A stretch of DNA of 64,000 nt. It comes from Paludibacteraceae bacterium. Its GTDB lineage: Bacteria > Bacteroidota > Bacteroidia > Bacteroidales > Paludibacteraceae. Below are positions 8,404 to 18,364 of the stretch, in pieces. The notes under the pieces are model-generated. The model had not been told where the DNA came from and searched no databases. It saw only the letters and a program-made list of their open reading frames with translations. Position 1 is the first letter of the stretch; each line of letters starts with the position of its first letter. The stretch is from NCBI GenBank assembly GCA_016283095.1, contig JAEEMG010000002.1, positions 1 to 64,000 of the forward strand. Direction: 5' to 3'. The translations under genes and the position numbers were made by a program.

Positions 8404-9810
8404 ATGTTTGAAAAATTTCTGCTTGACAGCGTCTCCTTTATCATGGCGTGGATGCCGCTGATTATCATAATCATATTTGGAATCATTATAGTAAAGTCTA
8501 TTATAAAGACTCCAGACAACACAAAGTATAATTACGAATCCGACTTCAAATATTGTGTCCTTGTTTTGCTGGCAGAGGTGATGAAAGCCGACGGAAGGAA
8601 CATGAACTGTGAGTTGGAAAGTGTAAAGTCTACAATACGCAGATATTACAAGACTGAAGGTGAACAGATAGCGGCTCTAAAATTATTCCAGTCGATTCTT
8701 AGCAAAACAGACATTCAATTAGACGAAATTTCCTACCGTATCAACGAAGGATTCGACTATGCCGCAAAATCCGAAATAATCATGGAATTGTTGGAAGTGG
8801 CTTACGCAGACAACCATCTCCGCAGCGTCGAGAGTTCAATATTAGAGTTCATTGTAGGAAAACTGAATATAACACAAACACAATACAGAAGCATAAAAGC
8901 CATTTTCAAGGAGAAAAACGATTACGGATGTTACAAGGAAGAACCATACCAATCCTCAGATTTCAACGAGAACACTTCGAAACATTACTACAACAAAGAC
9001 GAAAAAAAAGACAATAAAGAGGATAACGACAACAAAAAATACAAAGACGAACATAAATTCAAAAACAAATCTGAGTTCAACCATTGCATTCTGGTTTTGC
9101 TGGCAGAAATGATGAAAGCTGACAGCAGAAACATGAATTGTGAATTGGATCGTGTCAAGGCTACAATACGTAAACTTTACAAGACGGAAGAGGAACAGAA
9201 AACTGCACTCAAACAGTTTCAAACGCTCCTTGAAAGTGGCTACGACATTAATGAGATCTACCGTCGCATCAACGAAAATTTCGATTTTTCAGACAAATCA
9301 GAGCTTATCATTGAGTTGCTGGAAGTGGGTTATGCAGACAATGATTTCTCCGACAAAGAGGATTACGTTATCAGACTTCTAAGAAACAAACTGAACCTCT
9401 CACGTGCGGAATACAAAAACATTTTTATGCGTTTCAAGGTACTGCACAGAGAAAAGAAAAAGCATTATAACAAACAGTCGAATTCGTCTAAATCAAAAAA
9501 GTCATCCTCCAAATCTAGCAATAATAAGGAGCAACATAAAAATTCAAAGGAGGAAAACGACAATCATAGCAACCAGAATGAGAGCCGTAGGCCCAACGAC
9601 GTTTCTGTGAATAATGCCTACAACATCCTTGGAGTGAGTGAGGCGACCCCAGATGCGGAGGTCAAAAAAGCCTACCGTGCTTTGGCGATAATGTATCATC
9701 CTGATAAAGTTTCCTCATTGGGCGACGAAGCTATCCGCCAGGCCACAGAATCAATGAAACAGATCAACCATGCTTGGGATGTTGTGAAAGAGGCAAGAGG
9801 AATGAAATAA
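8404..9810 (+). CDS. membrane-anchored double-TerB/J-domain protein 5 (DjlA-like)
   Basis: 468 residues. A membrane anchor (about 12-34, MAWMPLIIIIIFGIIIV) is followed by TerB-like domain one (EVMKADGRNMNCELESVK; LEVAYADNHLRSVES), a Lys/Asp/Asn-rich spacer, TerB-like domain two (EMMKADSRNMNCELDRVK; LEVGYADNDFSDKED), a Ser/Lys-rich linker and a J domain with HPD at 432-434. Like paralogue 2 it has two TerB units, but here the two resemble each other closely and are separated by a long charged spacer, so the duplication looks independent. It ends the array. Confidence 0.85.
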   Translation: MFEKFLLDSVSFIMAWMPLIIIIIFGIIIVKSIIKTPDNTKYNYESDFKYCVLVLLAEVMKADGRNMNCELESVKSTIRRYYKTEGEQIAALKLFQSILSKTDIQLDEISYRINEGFDYAAKSEIIMELLEVAYADNHLRSVESSILEFIVGKLNITQTQYRSIKAIFKEKNDYGCYKEEPYQSSDFNENTSKHYYNKDEKKDNKEDNDNKKYKDEHKFKNKSEFNHCILVLLAEMMKADSRNMNCELDRVKATIRKLYKTEEEQKTALKQFQTLLESGYDINEIYRRINENFDFSDKSELIIELLEVGYADNDFSDKEDYVIRLLRNKLNLSRAEYKNIFMRFKVLHREKKKHYNKQSNSSKSKKSSSKSSNNKEQHKNSKEENDNHSNQNESRRPNDVSVNNAYNILGVSEATPDAEVKKAYRALAIMYHPDKVSSLGDEAIRQATESMKQINHAWDVVKEARGMK

Positions 9811-9959: not shown

Positions 9960-10922
9960 TTATTTTCCTCCGAGCAAATAATATGTTGATTTGTCGGCAT
10001 GACAACGCTTGTCCTTAAACTTATATTCCAGGATCATTTCATGAGATGAGAATGGCGACGCGAAGTCTCCATGCACCACCAAATCAAAACTATATCCTAA
10101 ATACAGATGGTCACCAAGAGCCACTCCAGCATTGATAATCAGATCGGTGGAGCCATTACCTATCAGACTATGTCGGCAACTGACGCCGCAAGCCCATGCG
10201 TCGGCTTCCTTATTCTTCGCTTTAATCAGTGCGACGTGAATTTCTCCCTGCAGACGGTCGGAATCATACAACTGCACCATTCCACCTGTGTATAAATGAA
10301 GCATTCTCAGCGTCGGTCTACGGTATGATCCATAAAGATAAAAAGCATTGACGGTGATTCTCCTATCCTGACGTGTCAGCCAATCCTCCATATTTTTAGC
10401 TGAGATGCCGACGGTGGTCTCGACATCTTCTGTGCCTACAATCCGTCGTTTATGTACCCACTCCACCCCAAAACTGAAATTTGGATTCACCTCATTGCTG
10501 TCATACAGAGATGCGTCGTCCATATCGTCGGCTGAAATCTTATTCACATCCTTCTGCTGGACCACCGCACCTCCTTCCAAACCAAGATTTACCCTATCAT
10601 CATCTGAGCCGAGACTGAAAATATAATTGCCGTCAATCTTCACCGTAGATGTATAACCTGCCAGATCAAACTGCGTTTTGATTCCAAACAACGATCTCAA
10701 TTTCGGTTTATATTGACTGAAACATCCCCAAAACGACAATGGCTGACCTTCGTACCCCACCTGTTGCATACGTCCGAGCAATGAAGCATGTGTCATCGGC
10801 ACAAGGTAAGATGGAGAAAACGGAGATCTGTCCGTCCAGAAATGTAAGGCATTGGCATCTGTTTGTGCTGATATGATTAAAGTATAAAATAATGAAAAAA
10901 TCACACCAAATAATCTAAACAT
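9960..10922 (-). CDS. PorP/SprF-family type IX secretion membrane protein
   Basis: 320 residues with a signal peptide (about 1-19, ending LIISAQ). The barrel-type sequence includes YLVPMTHASLLGRMQQVGYEGQPLSFWG near the start, GLEGGAVVQQ and FSFGVEWVHKRR in the middle and GVALGDHLYLGYSFDLVV near the end; order and spacing fit the PorP/SprF family. In gliding Flavobacteria such outer-membrane proteins are partners for secretion and surface attachment of type B T9SS cargo such as SprB. The next coding sequence upstream after a small transposase is a giant protein with a type B sorting domain, which supports the pairing. No promoter was recognised directly upstream. Confidence 0.85.
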   Translation of the reverse strand: MFRLFGVIFSLFYTLIISAQTDANALHFWTDRSPFSPSYLVPMTHASLLGRMQQVGYEGQPLSFWGCFSQYKPKLRSLFGIKTQFDLAGYTSTVKIDGNYIFSLGSDDDRVNLGLEGGAVVQQKDVNKISADDMDDASLYDSNEVNPNFSFGVEWVHKRRIVGTEDVETTVGISAKNMEDWLTRQDRRITVNAFYLYGSYRRPTLRMLHLYTGGMVQLYDSDRLQGEIHVALIKAKNKEADAWACGVSCRHSLIGNGSTDLIINAGVALGDHLYLGYSFDLVVHGDFASPFSSHEMILEYKFKDKRCHADKSTYYLLGGK

Positions 10923-10980
10923 ATTTTTTTGTATCTGTTAAATGATCATATATAGTTAATTATAAAGGCTATACATCAAA

Positions 10981-11160
10981 AAGTATTACCAAGTAAAGCG
11001 AGCTCGTCTTGTGGTGAAGTCTCAGGTATACCAGGATCACCGCATGTCTGTAAGACAATACCGAGCGAAGCGAGAGTAACCTGTGACGAAGTCTCAGGTA
11101 TTGACGAAGTCTCAGGAAGAGCTATAGGTCGGGACTCATGTCTGTAAGACAATACCATAT
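10981..11160. repeat. REP-like elements, left side of transposase
   Basis: At least two full or partial copies of a palindrome-bearing element: ATGTCTGTAAGACAATACC (11044 and 11139), GAGCGAAGCGAGAGTAACC and GACGAAGTCTCAGGTA; a degenerate third begins at 10981. Read in reverse complement, the 72-bp array on the other side of the transposase gives the same order (ATGTCTGAAAGATAGTAATG, GAGCGAAGCGATAGTAACC, GACGCAGTCTCGGG), so the gene is flanked by inverted copies of one family. Confidence 0.8.
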
Positions 11161-11612
11161 CAATCATCAAGAAATCTATTAAAGTTTGGATCTAAATTAA
11201 ATTCTATCAATAGTTTACCAAATTCTTCTTGAAAAACTACCTTCCTATGATGTTCCTTCTGATTGCGAATATAGTTTATCAAATTTGTTCTAGCATCAGC
11301 AGAGTAAGTAAAAGCAGCATACCCATTACCCCATGCTTCAAACAATGGGAACCAATCTCTATGCTCTTTCATCCATTTCGATGTCTCTTGTTTGAGTGTT
11401 TTCATAAAATCACTCAATGCTATTGTTGGGTTTAATTCCAAACACATGTGTACATGATCAGGCATTGAGTTTATACGATAAAGAGTACATTTCTTTCTTT
11501 TACAAAATCCATATACATATGCATAGAAATCTCTTTCATGTTCCACATTGATAGTATGATGGCTAAACTTTGTACGCCATACAATATGATATGTTAAACT
11601 GATATGACTCAT
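11160..11612 (-). CDS. IS200/IS605-like (RAYT-type) Y1 transposase
   Basis: 150 residues of the HUH single-strand transposase superfamily. The N-terminus SLTYHIVWRTKF is the family opening, the metal-binding HUH motif is in MPDHVHMCLEL, and the catalytic Tyr is expected in LINYIRNQKEHH. The full TnpA length is present with no frameshift, so it may be active. No tnpB follows. Palindromic REP-like repeats lie on both sides in inverted orientation, as in REP-associated tyrosine transposases; a stand-alone IS200 element is the alternative. It separates the PorP/SprF-like gene from the giant adhesin. Confidence 0.88.
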   Translation of the reverse strand: MSHISLTYHIVWRTKFSHHTINVEHERDFYAYVYGFCKRKKCTLYRINSMPDHVHMCLELNPTIALSDFMKTLKQETSKWMKEHRDWFPLFEAWGNGYAAFTYSADARTNLINYIRNQKEHHRKVVFQEEFGKLLIEFNLDPNFNRFLDD

Positions 11613-11634
11613 ATATTTCTCCTTTCTTTTAGTA

Positions 11635-11876
11635 CTGTCTTTCAGACAGTTTATTATTTTTCTTTGATCCCCGAGACTGCGTCACGGGTTACTATCGCTT
11701 CACTCATTACTGTCTTTCAGACATTCTATTTTTCTTTGATCCCCGAGACTGCGTCACGGGTTACTATCGCTTCGCTCATTACTATCTTTCAGACATTCTA
11801 TTTTTCTTTGATCCCCGAGACTGCGTCACGGGTTACTATCGCTTCGCTCATTACTATCTTTCAGACATTCTTCTAA
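11635..11876. repeat. 72-bp tandem array of REP-like elements, right side of transposase
   Basis: Three units start at 11661, 11733 and 11805 (exact period 72), each with TCTTTGATCCCCGAGACTGC, GTCACGGGTTACTATCGCTT and CATTACTATCTTTCAGACAT. A partial unit (ACTGTCTTTCAGACAGT) precedes at 11633. The units differ by single bases (TTCACTC/TTCGCTC, ACTGTC/ACTATC). The open frame crossing the array is repeat, not a gene. Confidence 0.9.
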
Positions 11877-11904
11877 ATCAAAAATTGTTGTGATTCCAAT
11901 CCCT

Positions 11905-14900
11905 TTACATTGCAACCGTCACATATCCATAATGTTTCTGACCTATTGAATCCGTCACAATATAATAATATGTGTCAGGGGTAATTTTTCCGTTAGGCAA
12001 CACACCATTCCATCCGTCTGCTCCCTGATAAAGCATTATCCCATGCCTGTCCTTTATCTCCACATGATATCCCTTCATAAAGTGATCATTTATCATATCC
12101 CCGTTTGGAGTAAAGGTGTTTGGAATTTCGAACTCTGTTTCTATTGTTGTGTGAAGACGCAATTTGCATCCATCTTTTGTCTCTACCACTGCCACCGCAG
12201 AAAAAGACATAGCATCATCAACATTAAAAGTATAGTTGAAACTTTGTTGCGAAGATGTTCCTCCGTCGCTCATCAGCCAAATGAAAACACACTCATCCAA
12301 ATCATCCTCACTGTCCAACGACAAACTGATCTCTGAATCCCCACGTCTGATTTTAGCCGGTGTGGCTGAAATAGAAACAGTTGGCACTGGCAATTCTTCA
12401 ATTTTGAAATCAATCCGCTTTTGACAACCATACCCATCCTTACCTATAACATATCCATTACCTGCCTCCGTGAAGAGACATTCATCTTTGTCACTTCCGT
12501 CACTCCATACATATTCATCCGCTCCTGCAACCCCAATCACGACATTCTCGCCAGGACATATTTGGTATTTTCCTGTCGTTATCATATCCGGGATATCATT
12601 ATATATCAATTCAGTAGACGCGGATGATACGCATCCATACTCGTTTATTGCGACTACTTCATATTCCCCACTTTGTGTCACATCTATCTCCGCTCCTTCT
12701 TCTCCTGTGCTCCACCTGTATTTGCACTTCAAATCAGATATAGCAGTCAACCTTGCATATTGTTTATTGCAGACTGGAGTTTCCGCTCCCAAGATTTCCA
12801 CTTTAGGCAAACTTCTCTGATTGATTACAAACTGTTTATGGCCTCTGCAACCATTCTTATCAACAACAGAAACTGAATATTTTCCGTGTTTGGCGAACTC
12901 AAATTCTTTAGAATTAGATAATGTATCTCCGTTACTTTCATCAATCCACGTAGATTTAACTACATTGGATTTCAGCAAAGTCACCATTGCCACATCACCC
13001 GAATCTTCACAAATATCAAAATCTCCATCAATTATCACATCGTCCATATCATACTTATGCACAACTGTTTCAGCCATGTTACTTGCACATCCATTCTCAT
13101 CTTTCGCAACCACAAACAATGTGCAAGTGTCTGTCACATACACAGATGAGTCTTTCTTCCCATTACTCCAATTGTAATCAACAAGTTTAGATCCAGACTT
13201 CTGCAATACAGTCAGTGCCGCCGTTTCACCGTCGCAAATATGCATTTTTCCTATCACATCTATTTTTGGTCTCGGCAGCACTCGGACATCAAATGAAGCA
13301 TTTCGGCATTCCCCATTGTTGAGACAAACCGACACCTTATATATACGGCTCTCTTTCGCATATATCTCAGGTCTTCCTCTGCCATCATCCCAAATATAAT
13401 AATCTCCACCAGAAGCTATCAACAGTACGCTGTCTCCTTCACACACCGTAGCTCTGCCATCAAAACTTTCGTTAATAAGGGGAACGGGAACATCTATCTC
13501 CACCACATCCTTAGACGCCACATTTGAACATCCTACACTATCAGTACCAATCACTGTATAGCGTCCTCCGTGTGTGATTTCAATAGACGGTACTGTCCTT
13601 TTCTCCGTTCCCCAACCATACGTCTTACCTCCTGTTGCAGTCAGAACCGCAGTTTCCCCACGTCTTAACGTATCATCTCCAACAATGGTGATTTTCGGCA
13701 AACCATATTCTTCAACCTCGATTGTATCCCCATTTTCACAACCGAATTTATCCGTTGCCACGACGGAATATATTCCTCCACTATAAACCGAAATTTCATC
13801 ATCCGCCTTTCCATTACTCCATTGCAAACAAATAGTTTCGTCTCTAGCGGTATCGGAAGCAACACCTATAGTCAATGCTTTCAAAACCAACGAGTCTCCT
13901 TCACACATCCACCTATTTCCTGTAATCTTCAAATGTGGTTTAATGAGCACATTTATATTAAACCAAACCGTATCTGAGATTCCATCAGGCGACGTTGACA
14001 CAACATAATGAGTTCCCGACTCTCTAAAAACAGCCTTTCTTCCTATACTTCCGTCACTCCAAACAAACGAATTAGAAACAGGAGCAAACACAGTAATCTC
14101 AGTCGAATCGTCTTCACAAATATCAAATTTACCATCGACAAACAATTCTGACGCGGTCACTCTAATTGCAGCATGATCAAAGCATCCGTATTCGTCAAAC
14201 ACTGTAACAGAATAGTTTGCATACATATTTATATCATTTCCATCTATTGTGATTTGAGATGAAGTTTGACGATCCGGCATCCACAAATAACGATAATCAG
14301 AGCTATCCGAATTAATTACATTTGCTGTAAGAGTTGCAGTTTGAGAAGAAGCGATCTGTGTTATTCCCGAGATTTCCACCATCGGATTTCTACGTTGTTT
14401 CACATAATGATACACTGTATCAGAACGACAACCCATATTATCATAACCGACAGCCCAATATACACCAGTGCTATCCACAGACATTGTTTTTTTAGCACTA
14501 CCGTCGCTCCAAATTATATTTCGACATTCCGTGCCATTCGCCACCAGTTCTATTTCTCCGTTTTCACAGACAAAAGAATCTCCGGAAATGGACAAAAATG
14601 GAGACGGAGACTCCTTGGCATACACTGAATCAACAGTCGTACAACCTAACGAGTCCGTCGCCTCCACCACATAAAAATTTTCCGCATTATCAAGATGAAT
14701 GTTGTTTTTTATCAAACTTTTTGTCCATTTTAACTTCACACCTTCAGAATGTATCACATCAAATGATACAGAATCTCCTTTGCAAAACGACTTTGTCTTG
14801 CCATCCGCAAAATCCAATTTTGGCAAAGTTGCCCTTGTCACTTCAAAATCAGCAGTGTCAGACACACATAAGCCATTATATCCGACAACCGTATATTTTC

Positions 14901-17900
14901 CGGGACGATAAACCTCTATTTGTCTGGCAGTATCACCAGTGTTCCAATGCAGACGATCACATTCCGCAACGTCTACAACAAGCGTCGCACTGTCATTCAT
15001 ACCACACAAATATCCCTTTCCTTCTATTTCCAACTTAGGTAAAGAAACCTTTTGGACATTCACTATATATGTATCTGACGGACACCCAGCCGAATCATAA
15101 CCGACAACCAAATGATTTCCCTCTACATCTGTAGACGTAGTGTTCCCAGCCAAATTTTCACCATCCCATGCAAAAGAGACCGCATCTGTTGAGAAAAACT
15201 GTATATCGGCTATGTCACGTTCACAAAATGACACTGTGTCTGGAGCTGACAACAACGGTTTTCTTCTCTCACGCACCGTCATCTCCGCATACGCCTTGCA
15301 TCCGAAACTATCTAATCCCACCACCGTCACCAAGCCAGCATGAGCATAATAGAATGGAGTATCAACAGCCTTATTGTCCCAATAAAACTGTTGGAAATCA
15401 CCATTCACTGATAAATAGGATAAAGAGTCTACACAAACCTCGGACCTTCCGAAAATTTGTATATTAGGACTATTTAGTATTAAGCATTTCGTTTTTGACG
15501 AGACACATCCATTCGTGTCTGTTGCAGTACACATATATGTTCCGGCAGTGTCGACGACGATGGAATCTCCGGCATAGCCATTTTGCCAGACGTAGGAAAG
15601 CATTGATCCAGACTGTGCGACAAGTGTAGCCGTGCTATCCGCACAGATAACATCTGCTGATTGGATTTCAAACTGTGGCAGTTCATGAATCACCACGTCA
15701 GCAACCGCTGTGCCGACACAGCCAAACGAGTCTGTTGCCGTGACCTCCACTCTCCCACTCTGCTTCACAGTTATCATCGGTGAAGTGTCGGATGTGCAAT
15801 TCCACGCATATCTGACGCTTCCATCCTGAGCTACAAATGAGGCTTCGATTGTCAGACTATCACCTTCACACGCCTCTAAATTCGAAGAGGTGATCGAACC
15901 AACTGGGAGATCCCTCACCACGGATTCCACCTTATGGTTTGTACGGCATCCAGACAAACTATCAGTCACCACAACAGTATATGTTTCTGCTGAAGTAAAA
16001 GAAAAAGTAGAGTCGGAAGAGCCGTCTGGCCATTTGAACATACATTTTTTATCCGTCTCCAAAGCGATCATTCCCGCTGTCGGTCCGCACGCAGGCTTCA
16101 CCACATCCGTAATAGTCGGTTTGACTGCCAGTTCCACTTTCACTTTGGCAGTATCGCTGCATCCGTTTGCTGTCGTTCCGACAACCATGAAAGTACCCGA
16201 ACTTGAGGCTCTGTACTTATTACTGTCAGAGCCGACTTTCTTTCCCAACTTGCTCCACTGATAATGATCCGCACCATTCACAGTGAGCGTAACTGTGGAG
16301 TTTTCGCAAAGAAGCTTCAACGTGTCACCTTTCAACTTTGGTGCAGAATTCACCACTACAGAAAAATCCTTGCGTGTCTCACAATTGTGAGAGTTGGACA
16401 CCACCACCTGATAATCACCGCTCTTCTTCAACACTGCCAGAGAATCCGAGTCAATCACCTTTCCATTCGCGTCGACCCAAGAATATCTATATTTTGTGTT
16501 GGAACGATTATCCACTTCGACCTGCAACACGCTTCCTTCATTCTTGCAAAACGACAAATCTCCGATCAATGAAATCTCCGGATAAGGCAAAAACTCCACA
16601 TCAGTATATGCCTCACTTACACATCCAGTGACAGGATCCTTCACCTGTGCACGATAACGACCTGAATGGGAAATATTTATAGTAGTAGACGTGTTTCCAA
16701 AAATAGAATCTGGGGAGATCCAAAAAAATTCAGAGCCCCGAGTAACAGTACAACTAATGGCCTCCTTATCCCCTTCACAAGGGATTACAGATTCTAGAAA
16801 AATAGTAGGGCTCTGAATTTCTGTTATGTGGAATACAAACTCTTTACTTTTACAACCATTTGATGTATAGCCAACGACACTATAGTCACCTTCTTTAGAC
16901 AAAGCATATTGGCTTTCGCCTGTACCGAAACTCATACCGGATCCATTCCATTCAAAAAAGGTAAGGTCAGGTCCTTCAGCAGAAAATGTAGTTTGGTGGC
17001 CGCTGCAAATCTCAGACACAAGGTTTGGAATTGTCACGTCAGCCACAGAATCAATAGAAGTAATGACAACCTCGCTTGATGATTTGCACCCATCCACCGT
17101 CTTCACCGCCACACGATATCTATCCTCTTCCGTAACCGTTATTTTCTTATCATTAGAAAAAGGGACACCACCTCTGCTCCACTCATAAGAAACGATCTGA
17201 GATTCCTTCAAATCATGATCCGCTGAGATTTCCGTTTCGACGGTGCCAGGACAGAATGCTGTGACACCCCCAAATTCGATGTTCGCACTCATCTTCGGTT
17301 TGATGGTGAAATGCAATGTGTCACGACAAACATTCCTGCCGATCGTTTTTGTGCCGACCACATAATAGTCACCACTTGCAGAAAAGGTCGCTGAATTCGA
17401 AGTCTCACCGCCAACCCATTCGTATGAATCCATATCAGAAGCAGTCAAAGTAAGAGACTCACCAAGACAAAGGCCATCATTTCCAGAAATAGAAGGGGTA
17501 GGCGACGGAATGACAGACGCGTCAACCGTTTTAGTGCAACCATAGGCTGTGGCAGTCAACGAGTACAAGCCTGCGACCGTAGTTGAAAAAGACTCTTCAG
17601 TGGAAACTTCCGCACCGTCTTTCTGCCATGATAAATCAGCTGGAATTTTTCTTGTTCCCTGACGTACTACAGCTTTCAAAGTAGCAGGATCACCATTGCA
17701 AAGTTGGGATTTACCCTCGTCTACACGAAGCGTCCATCTCGGCTCATCCTTGATTTCGATTGTTTCTGTCACTATGTTACCATCCTTAAGAGTGATCACC
17801 GCATCGATGGACATTCCAGCATAGATAGCAGATATTGAATATGCAAAAGACGGGAGTTTATTCCCATTCTGTTGAAATTCAACACTTTTAACATCAGAAT

Positions 17901-18036
17901 GATCCTCCATCTGAAGCTTTTGCACACCATTGTTGCCACAGACATAAAAGACACCACCGTCGACATTCTGCCACTTATAAGCGAATGCGGACTGCGACAT
18001 AAATAATAAAACCAAAATTATGAACCTAATCGCCAT
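11905..18036 (-). CDS. giant SprB-like adhesin with Ig/PKD-like repeats and T9SS type B sorting domain
   Basis: About 2043 residues. The signal peptide begins at the chosen start (MAIRFIILVLLFMSQSAFA); the frame is open eight codons further (to 18060) but would add an acidic N-terminus. After a short unique region come about 25 repeats of 70-90 residues. Each typically opens with a Cys motif (CEGDSL, CADSTA, CENGEI), holds YxWxxG in the middle and ends in YxVxxTDxxGC, suggesting one disulfide per repeat. The last ~70 residues (IPNTFTPNGDMINDHF to YYYIVTDSIGQKHYGYVTV) are a gliding-type (type B) T9SS C-terminal domain. Predicted exported to the surface by the type IX system; ligand unknown. 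The PorP/SprF-like gene downstream is the likely partner. Confidence 0.9.
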   Translation of the reverse strand: MAIRFIILVLLFMSQSAFAYKWQNVDGGVFYVCGNNGVQKLQMEDHSDVKSVEFQQNGNKLPSFAYSISAIYAGMSIDAVITLKDGNIVTETIEIKDEPRWTLRVDEGKSQLCNGDPATLKAVVRQGTRKIPADLSWQKDGAEVSTEESFSTTVAGLYSLTATAYGCTKTVDASVIPSPTPSISGNDGLCLGESLTLTASDMDSYEWVGGETSNSATFSASGDYYVVGTKTIGRNVCRDTLHFTIKPKMSANIEFGGVTAFCPGTVETEISADHDLKESQIVSYEWSRGGVPFSNDKKITVTEEDRYRVAVKTVDGCKSSSEVVITSIDSVADVTIPNLVSEICSGHQTTFSAEGPDLTFFEWNGSGMSFGTGESQYALSKEGDYSVVGYTSNGCKSKEFVFHITEIQSPTIFLESVIPCEGDKEAISCTVTRGSEFFWISPDSIFGNTSTTINISHSGRYRAQVKDPVTGCVSEAYTDVEFLPYPEISLIGDLSFCKNEGSVLQVEVDNRSNTKYRYSWVDANGKVIDSDSLAVLKKSGDYQVVVSNSHNCETRKDFSVVVNSAPKLKGDTLKLLCENSTVTLTVNGADHYQWSKLGKKVGSDSNKYRASSSGTFMVVGTTANGCSDTAKVKVELAVKPTITDVVKPACGPTAGMIALETDKKCMFKWPDGSSDSTFSFTSAETYTVVVTDSLSGCRTNHKVESVVRDLPVGSITSSNLEACEGDSLTIEASFVAQDGSVRYAWNCTSDTSPMITVKQSGRVEVTATDSFGCVGTAVADVVIHELPQFEIQSADVICADSTATLVAQSGSMLSYVWQNGYAGDSIVVDTAGTYMCTATDTNGCVSSKTKCLILNSPNIQIFGRSEVCVDSLSYLSVNGDFQQFYWDNKAVDTPFYYAHAGLVTVVGLDSFGCKAYAEMTVRERRKPLLSAPDTVSFCERDIADIQFFSTDAVSFAWDGENLAGNTTSTDVEGNHLVVGYDSAGCPSDTYIVNVQKVSLPKLEIEGKGYLCGMNDSATLVVDVAECDRLHWNTGDTARQIEVYRPGKYTVVGYNGLCVSDTADFEVTRATLPKLDFADGKTKSFCKGDSVSFDVIHSEGVKLKWTKSLIKNNIHLDNAENFYVVEATDSLGCTTVDSVYAKESPSPFLSISGDSFVCENGEIELVANGTECRNIIWSDGSAKKTMSVDSTGVYWAVGYDNMGCRSDTVYHYVKQRRNPMVEISGITQIASSQTATLTANVINSDSSDYRYLWMPDRQTSSQITIDGNDINMYANYSVTVFDEYGCFDHAAIRVTASELFVDGKFDICEDDSTEITVFAPVSNSFVWSDGSIGRKAVFRESGTHYVVSTSPDGISDTVWFNINVLIKPHLKITGNRWMCEGDSLVLKALTIGVASDTARDETICLQWSNGKADDEISVYSGGIYSVVATDKFGCENGDTIEVEEYGLPKITIVGDDTLRRGETAVLTATGGKTYGWGTEKRTVPSIEITHGGRYTVIGTDSVGCSNVASKDVVEIDVPVPLINESFDGRATVCEGDSVLLIASGGDYYIWDDGRGRPEIYAKESRIYKVSVCLNNGECRNASFDVRVLPRPKIDVIGKMHICDGETAALTVLQKSGSKLVDYNWSNGKKDSSVYVTDTCTLFVVAKDENGCASNMAETVVHKYDMDDVIIDGDFDICEDSGDVAMVTLLKSNVVKSTWIDESNGDTLSNSKEFEFAKHGKYSVSVVDKNGCRGHKQFVINQRSLPKVEILGAETPVCNKQYARLTAISDLKCKYRWSTGEEGAEIDVTQSGEYEVVAINEYGCVSSASTELIYNDIPDMITTGKYQICPGENVVIGVAGADEYVWSDGSDKDECLFTEAGNGYVIGKDGYGCQKRIDFKIEELPVPTVSISATPAKIRRGDSEISLSLDSEDDLDECVFIWLMSDGGTSSQQSFNYTFNVDDAMSFSAVAVVETKDGCKLRLHTTIETEFEIPNTFTPNGDMINDHFMKGYHVEIKDRHGIMLYQGADGWNGVLPNGKITPDTYYYIVTDSIGQKHYGYVTVAM

Positions 18037-18288: not shown

Positions 18289-18363
18289 CGAGATGTAGCG
18301 CAGTCCGGTTAGCGCATCTGGTTTGGGACCAGAGGGTCGGGGGTTCGAATCCCTTCATCTCGA
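18289..18363 (+). tRNA. tRNA-Pro (TGG)
   Basis: Cloverleaf: acceptor CGAGATG/CATCTCG, D stem GCGC/GCGC, anticodon stem TCTGG/CCAGA around loop TTTGGGA (anticodon TGG), T arm with GTTCGAAT. CCA is not encoded. Own promoter and terminator. Confidence 0.96.
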
Positions 18364-18364
18364 C

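Follow-up and report, generated by a model that had tools for sequence, protein, structure and literature searches.

Evidence for a REPtron in a probably exchanged spacer between a type IX secretion adhesin gene and its PorP/SprF-family partner in a Paludibacteraceae bacterium

The DNA analyzed here (the window: 64,000 nucleotides, bases 1-64000 of the 86.9-kb contig JAEEMG010000002.1) comes from a 3.69-Mb, 103-contig genome of a Paludibacteraceae bacterium. Its minus strand carries, in transcriptional order, an adhesin gene, a gene for a HUH Y1 transposase that we call RAYT-A (from repetitive extragenic palindrome (REP)-associated tyrosine transposase), and a PorP/SprF-family gene, hereafter porP. 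The best overall explanation of this arrangement, to which we assign a probability of roughly 0.78, is that a cargo-shuttle pair of the type IX secretion system (T9SS) has a REPtron (a RAYT, or TnpAREP, gene plus its REPs) parked between its two genes, and that the spacer holding it has been exchanged across species. What lies there is a REPtron and not an insertion sequence: there is one copy of the gene, inverted REPs lie on both sides of it, and further REPs are dispersed. The T9SS pair is an ordinary, known arrangement; the new point is a REPtron type that the classification tabulated by Quentin et al. (2018; PMC6006769) leaves undescribed, caught in interspecies exchange.

The adhesin gene (11905..18036, minus strand, ATG at 18036) encodes 2,043 amino acids with a signal peptide, CxGDS-type Ig/PKD repeats and a C-terminal type B (CHU_C) sorting domain. 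A 982-bp spacer separates its stop codon from the porP start and contains a left REP array on the minus strand (11655..11871; three 72-bp tandem units whose full-length REPs, at 11670-11724, 11742-11796 and 11814-11868, score 73-74 bits each), RAYT-A itself (11160..11612, minus strand; a 150-residue HUH Y1 endonuclease), and a right REP block on the plus strand (10971..11157), inverted relative to the left array, with one full REP at 11044-11098 and decayed copies at 10971-11026 and 11138-11157. The porP gene (9960..10922, minus strand; 320 residues) encodes an outer-membrane shuttle, and its start codon and signal peptide fall within the exchanged segment, which begins just past the adhesin stop codon and takes in the porP signal-peptide codons up to their end (10862..11904, minus strand; borders approximate). 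Open reading frames (ORFs) and family profiles bear out the gene order and coordinates given in a preliminary description of this DNA. That description had placed an IS200/RAYT gene with repeats between the partners and suggested that it may have brought REP elements; the insert is indeed a RAYT gene with REPs, full-length copies flanking it.

RAYT-A and its REP modules

RAYT-A matches PF01797 at 91.1 bits and the IS200/IS605 profile NF033573 at 77.4 bits (cut-off 55), and falls below the cut-off of the REP_Tyr_transpos profile NF047646 (25.2 vs 80 bits). Sequence search finds it detectably related to PDB chains 2xm3, 2vhg and 2a6m; the first two are ISDra2/IS608-type TnpA chains, with ISHp608 among the elements represented. 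Its HUH (DHVH) and tyrosine (YIRNQKEHH) motifs are intact and display the Y---Q--HH signature, with WG in place of WQ; this signature is shared by 26 of the 30 Y1 loci examined across the genus, and WQ is found in RAYT-C, a second Y1 protein introduced below. By motif alone, we would assign RAYT-A to TnpA subclass 1.2. Across the nine genomes of the genus (G000, the genome of the window, and its relatives G001-G008), PF01797 has 37 matches, and RAYT-A occurs once per carrier. The ratio of nonsynonymous to synonymous divergence (dN/dS) relative to the G007 orthologue, about 0.11 by the NG86 method with dS near saturation, indicates that the gene is under purifying selection.

The repeats around RAYT-A are built from a 55-bp module of two hairpins, and all four full-length REPs that a model search finds in the window lie around this gene. 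Over 32 copies, of which 28 are distinct, pairing in the stems reaches 93.6%, and the hairpins covary: 13 cells hold double changes, compared with a shuffled mean of 3.0, none of 500 shuffles came as high, and slid controls gave 0-2. Read on the opposite strand, hairpin 1 carries a GTAG foot in 12 of the 32 copies (11 of the 18 dispersed copies in G000) and hairpin 2 a GTAA foot in 26 of 32; the inverted pair of GTAG/GTAA-footed hairpins is similar to a REP doublet forming hairpins (REPIN-like).

Matching to a strict REP sequence pattern was too narrow a search, returning three sites, all beside RAYT-A; blastn and a covariance model, built with copies from G000, G001, G002, G004 and G007, revealed the dispersed copies. 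The counts from this model are lower bounds because 139 candidates were scored per genome: within the genus, at least 30 (G000), 39 (G001), 67 (G002), 16 (G003), 2 (G004), 32 (G006), 13 (G007) and 6 (G008), and outside it, at least 5 in G012 (weak), 19 in G013 and 1 in G022. Altogether at least 11 of 41 genomes have matches, with none in the other 30 among the candidates scored. The 18 dispersed copies read in G000 comprise 11 that are intergenic and 7 that overlap ORFs of 80-148 amino acids, most of which are, in our opinion, spurious. Dispersed REPs also form part of larger mosaics that have further sequence in common. In G000 and G002, one such mosaic, several hundred bases long and including a REP, is located downstream of a type B cargo gene; G003 and G006 lack it at the corresponding position (L154:1951-2005; L198; L199; L217). 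Another genus of the family has REP-like modules clustered about 75 bp apart (L192; G013:C101:8000-13360).

What ties these modules to RAYT-A is their placement. A scan of the flanks covered 30 sources, namely 29 Y1 loci plus the window, with six further Y1 matches outside it: full-length REPs stand inverted on both sides at all six RAYT-A loci, which occupy two unrelated chromosomal places, and 23 of the 24 other Y1 loci have none. The exception, L120, is RAYT-B, a third Y1 gene that lies next door in G002, where the scanned stretch overlaps RAYT-A's own REPs; the RAYT-C locus (L060) has no REP module. In G004 and G007 a RAYT-A homologue (68-69% amino acid identity) is found at an unrelated locus with one REP module on each side, adjoining a hydrolase-like gene, and the other G007 neighbour reads as a prolyl-tRNA synthetase (both names assigned by eye). 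The unit has therefore changed place. RAYT-A would nick and rejoin REP hairpins in single-stranded DNA, and its activity would spread REPs without routinely moving its own gene.

A slot that is never empty

The preliminary description had suggested that the transposase may have split an operon, and a split of a directly adjacent pair is not supported by comparison with relatives: strict adhesin-porP adjacency occurs in none of the eight genomes with an orthologous porP (the best match in G005, which has no orthologue, is 27-30% identical). The slot between the two genes measures about 0.7-1 kb and is filled in all eight. RAYT-A occupies it in four (G000, G002, G003 and G006), and is thus not common to all relatives; G004 has RAYT-C, another Y1 protein that is 24% identical to RAYT-A; and the remaining three have small ORFs, one of 182 amino acids in G001 and G008 and one of 157-198 amino acids, depending on the start chosen, in G007. 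These two ORFs match one another only weakly (BLASTP E 0.10) and have no Pfam, PADLOC or convincing PHROG match, and the 182-residue ORF was found in 2 of 61 genomes searched. The G008 slot retains a DNA remnant 85% identical to the start of the G007 ORF, which makes it likely that both ORFs were present there at one time.

Immediately downstream of porP in G001 (L059:2691-3113), G002 (L058:2160-2582) and G008 (L057:3151-3573) is RAYT-B (about 30% identical), making three Y1 lineages around one gene in one genus. The chance of finding two more RAYT lineages within 1.5-3 kb of the first comes to 7e-6 to 3e-3, a rough figure that depends on assumed numbers.

Such a slot might be explained by selection on its content for an effect on the pair, with hairpins or small ORFs setting the amount of shuttle relative to the 6-kb adhesin and the module varying by species. 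The constant filling and similar length would fit this idea, as would the hairpin-like stretch that the small-ORF versions have in common directly 3′ of the adhesin stop codon, and the presence of two RAYT lineages in the slot with the third just beyond porP. We nevertheless consider it unlikely: a neutral hot spot accounts for the same facts, porP is constrained in carriers and non-carriers of RAYT-A alike, and the Bacteroidetes consensus promoter motif TANNTTTG is absent from the slots of RAYT-A carriers.

Probable exchange of the spacer between species

Two comparisons locate the borders of the exchange. A 9.9-kb stretch that ends with the adhesin stop codon shows 97.4% identity between G001 and G002; their identity resumes in the porP signal-peptide codons, with nothing obvious in common between these points. 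For G000 vs G002, the exchanged segment is 96-100% identical and its flanks 83-89%: RAYT-A is 99.8% identical in nucleotide sequence (dS 0.012), the left and right spacers 96-98% and 99%, and the porP signal-peptide codons 97%; mature porP has a dS of 0.507 and 87-92% identity, the adhesin gene 77-82% (85% in its last 300 bases), and rtcB 80%. In G008, the adhesin and porP resemble those of the window about as closely as the G003 and G006 versions do, and the RAYT-A cassette is lacking. This pattern of identity indicates that the REPtron has been exchanged between species at exactly this slot.

We infer that the whole spacer moved, in one direction or the other, by homologous recombination anchored in conserved codons on both sides. 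The anchors would be the conserved end of the codons for the adhesin's C-terminal domain (CTD) and the start of porP, and the cassette would have replaced an earlier insert, along with the porP start and signal-peptide codons, rather than having been pasted into an operon.

The T9SS pair

The T9SS core, whose absence the preliminary description had named as a point that would count against its proposal, is present elsewhere in G000: SprA scores 2,089 bits, and GldK, GldL, GldM and GldN are clustered beside a PorP gene on contig C1, all above cut-off. The search covered these five proteins. The earlier statement that the window has no other T9SS genes stands for the four families searched genome-wide.

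Profile searches place Ig_7 and Ig_2 above cut-off in the adhesin. Its CTD scores 27.7 bits for CHU_C, just above the cut-off of 27, and 30.9 bits for TIGR04131, below the cut-off of 35, which makes the type B call right but weak; this marginal CTD ranks 24th of the 26 CHU_C matches in G000. The type B domain previously described stands, and "SprB-like" is a generous label for 2,043 residues. The PorP-like protein scores 60.5 bits for TIGR03519 (below the cut-off of 90.55) and 47.3 bits for PF11751 (cut-off 22.3), the lowest of the ten PorP_SprF matches in G000. This genome has seven CHU_C-PorP pairs, that of the window included, of which three are adjacent (C87, C4 and C101) and three have an OmpA-domain gene between the partners (C18 twice, and C3). 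Their OmpA domain suggests that these intervening genes are PorE-like; PorE homologues with an OmpA domain are described in such operons of Flavobacterium johnsoniae (PMC12618676).

The pair itself is conserved. Adhesin orthologues occur in seven relatives, and adhesin and porP are syntenic neighbours in all six that have both on one contig (G001, G003, G004, G006, G007 and G008). Set against the window, the adhesins of five relatives keep 91-98% identity in their final 85 residues; the body, taken in 150-residue blocks, falls to 27-84% identity in G004. PorP is 86-98% identical, and purifying selection acts on the mature protein (dN/dS about 0.05-0.19 in ten comparisons). A conserved CTD and PorP beside a diverging cargo body is what one would expect a matched CTD and shuttle to look like, and dependence of cargo on its cognate shuttle, as well as binding to it, has been shown in other species (PMC12618676, PMC9143113). 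By analogy with those pairs, the adhesin would be exported via SprA and captured by the PorP-like protein; RAYT-A probably has no role in secretion. Structure prediction for PorP from eight sequences of the genus gave a confidence (pLDDT) of 29, and a search of PDB sequences with the PorP profile found no match.

The named records with orthologues are metagenome-assembled genomes (MAGs) of Bacteroidales, including Candidatus Scybalocola fimicaballi and, from horse faeces, a Paludibacteraceae MAG. In the window, a tRNA-Pro(tgg) gene (18289-18364) lies some 250 bp upstream of where the adhesin gene begins, and the locus adjoins a ribosomal protein/SecY/RpoA cluster (21.6-37.8 kb). On its other side, porP adjoins a gene with TerB and DnaJ domains (8404-9810) that is present in multiple copies in some relatives (L058, L059, L061).

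Points against, and competing explanations

Several observations weigh against a REPtron exchanged at this slot. The REPs in the slot differ somewhat from the dispersed copies, having TTAC or GTAT instead of GTAG as their hairpin-1 foot, and the folding of individual slot units exceeds that of shuffled sequence by a modest margin (z -1.2). The paralogues nearest to RAYT-A (L112, L113 and L115), which cluster with it at 55% identity, have only weak REP-like hairpins (10-15 bits). RAYT-A of G006 (dS 0.24) is more diverged than its flanks, and the history is therefore more complex than one transfer. The G002 slot is split over two contigs within the repeat array (the adhesin ends C16 and porP starts C17), and each of these contigs joins a G002-type flank to the RAYT-A cassette. 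The assemblies are drafts throughout, and the five with a named record are MAGs. Finally, REPs persist in G001 (97% complete), where RAYT-A was not found; RAYT-A is therefore not needed to keep REPs, and another RAYT could be their partner.

Two side observations concern these same genomes. The 5′ half of G006 RAYT-A (L056:14207-14659) is identical to that of the window and its 3′ half is diverged, as if by gene conversion. G001 may hold an orphan REP population.

The numerous G001 matches, together with the mosaics in which dispersed copies sit, would suit an account in which RAYT-A does not have the dispersed repeats as its substrate at all, the repeats being those of another RAYT or transcription-related hairpins that flank RAYT-A by chance. 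Flanking by chance would have to recur, in inverted form, at every RAYT-A locus in two unrelated places and spare nearly all other Y1 loci, and we regard this account as improbable. Least credible is the idea that an IS200-type element inserted recently, remains mobile and broke up an operon of adhesin and porP: the NF033573 score, the intact HUH and tyrosine motifs and the variable presence among close relatives would fit it, but it is largely refuted by the lack of a clean empty site in any relative (non-carriers hold other DNA, and their porP signal peptide differs too) and of multiple copies (RAYT-A is single in each genome and the repeats are dispersed without it), and the gene appears to be under purifying selection.

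Implications

How domesticated REP transposases spread when they seem immobile as units is posed as an open question in the literature. With the REPtron reading, one such unit is visible in two chromosomal locations that are unrelated, and in one of these it is caught being swapped across species, with borders readable to tens of bases. If the assignment to subclass 1.2 is true, the enzymes that make REPs are not limited to class 2, and REP biology would extend to gut Bacteroidales. We are evenly divided on a broader proposal: that this is an undescribed type of REPtron (class 1, subclass 1.2, with its own GTAG/GTAA-footed REPIN-like repeats, in gut Bacteroidales), and that the adhesin-shuttle spacer is a recurrent cross-species exchange slot for RAYT lineages and small ORFs, anchored in the sorting-domain codons. 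Judging by titles and the beginnings of abstracts, searches of the open-licence literature showed no report of REPs with such class-1 proteins in Bacteroidetes; those directed at Bacteroidetes brought up PMC6006769 and PMC3733652 alone, and a search on T9SS with IS200 showed nothing relevant.

Comparison with known systems

As in the SprB-SprF pair of F. johnsoniae and the PG1035-PorP pair of Porphyromonas gingivalis, a cargo gene with a type B CTD is followed on the same strand by a porP/sprF-like gene (PMC9143113, PMC12618676). The genome likewise has SprA and GldKLMN, and the CTD and partner are conserved while the cargo body diverges. Unlike those pairs, the two genes are not directly adjacent, a RAYT or small ORFs lying between them, the cargo has 2,043 residues, and two of the four family scores are below cut-off. 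A partner gene directly downstream is common, not universal, and orphans are reported (PMC12618676).

The likeness to IS200/IS605 elements (the TnpA proteins of IS608 and ISDra2) goes as far as a common HUH Y1 fold family and a detectable sequence relation; unlike them, RAYT-A is present in one copy per genome and shows no sign of insertion as a unit with a clean empty site. Closer is TnpA subclass 1.2, given by Quentin et al. (2018; PMC6006769) as Y---Q--HH proteins of about 148 residues with low copy number in Bacteroidetes and Cyanobacteria, which RAYT-A resembles in length (about 150 residues), in DHVH as a form of DH[IV]H, in the tyrosine signature, in low copy number and in host phylum. 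It differs in having WG where their Table 1 gives WQ, and in its flanking and dispersed REPs, for in that table subclass 1.2 is marked "no" for REP-type structures.

With REPtrons the element has in common a single-copy HUH Y1 gene, inverted REPs, dispersed copies, and a patchy distribution with transfer. A GTAG foot, one form of the GT[AG]G foot of REPs, occurs in part of its copies. PMC3733652 defines the class of REPs tagged with GTAG, and recognition of REPs by TnpAREP is treated in PMC8266576. The element departs from REPtrons in its class-1 Y---Q--HH signature, where class 2 has Y..NP (PMC6006769, Table 1), and from class-2 TnpAREP proteins in scoring below the NF047646 cut-off. The same paper mentions that at one locus in E. 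coli a toxin-antitoxin operon has taken the place of a REPtron (PMC6006769), a parallel to the small ORFs that occupy the slot in other members of the genus.

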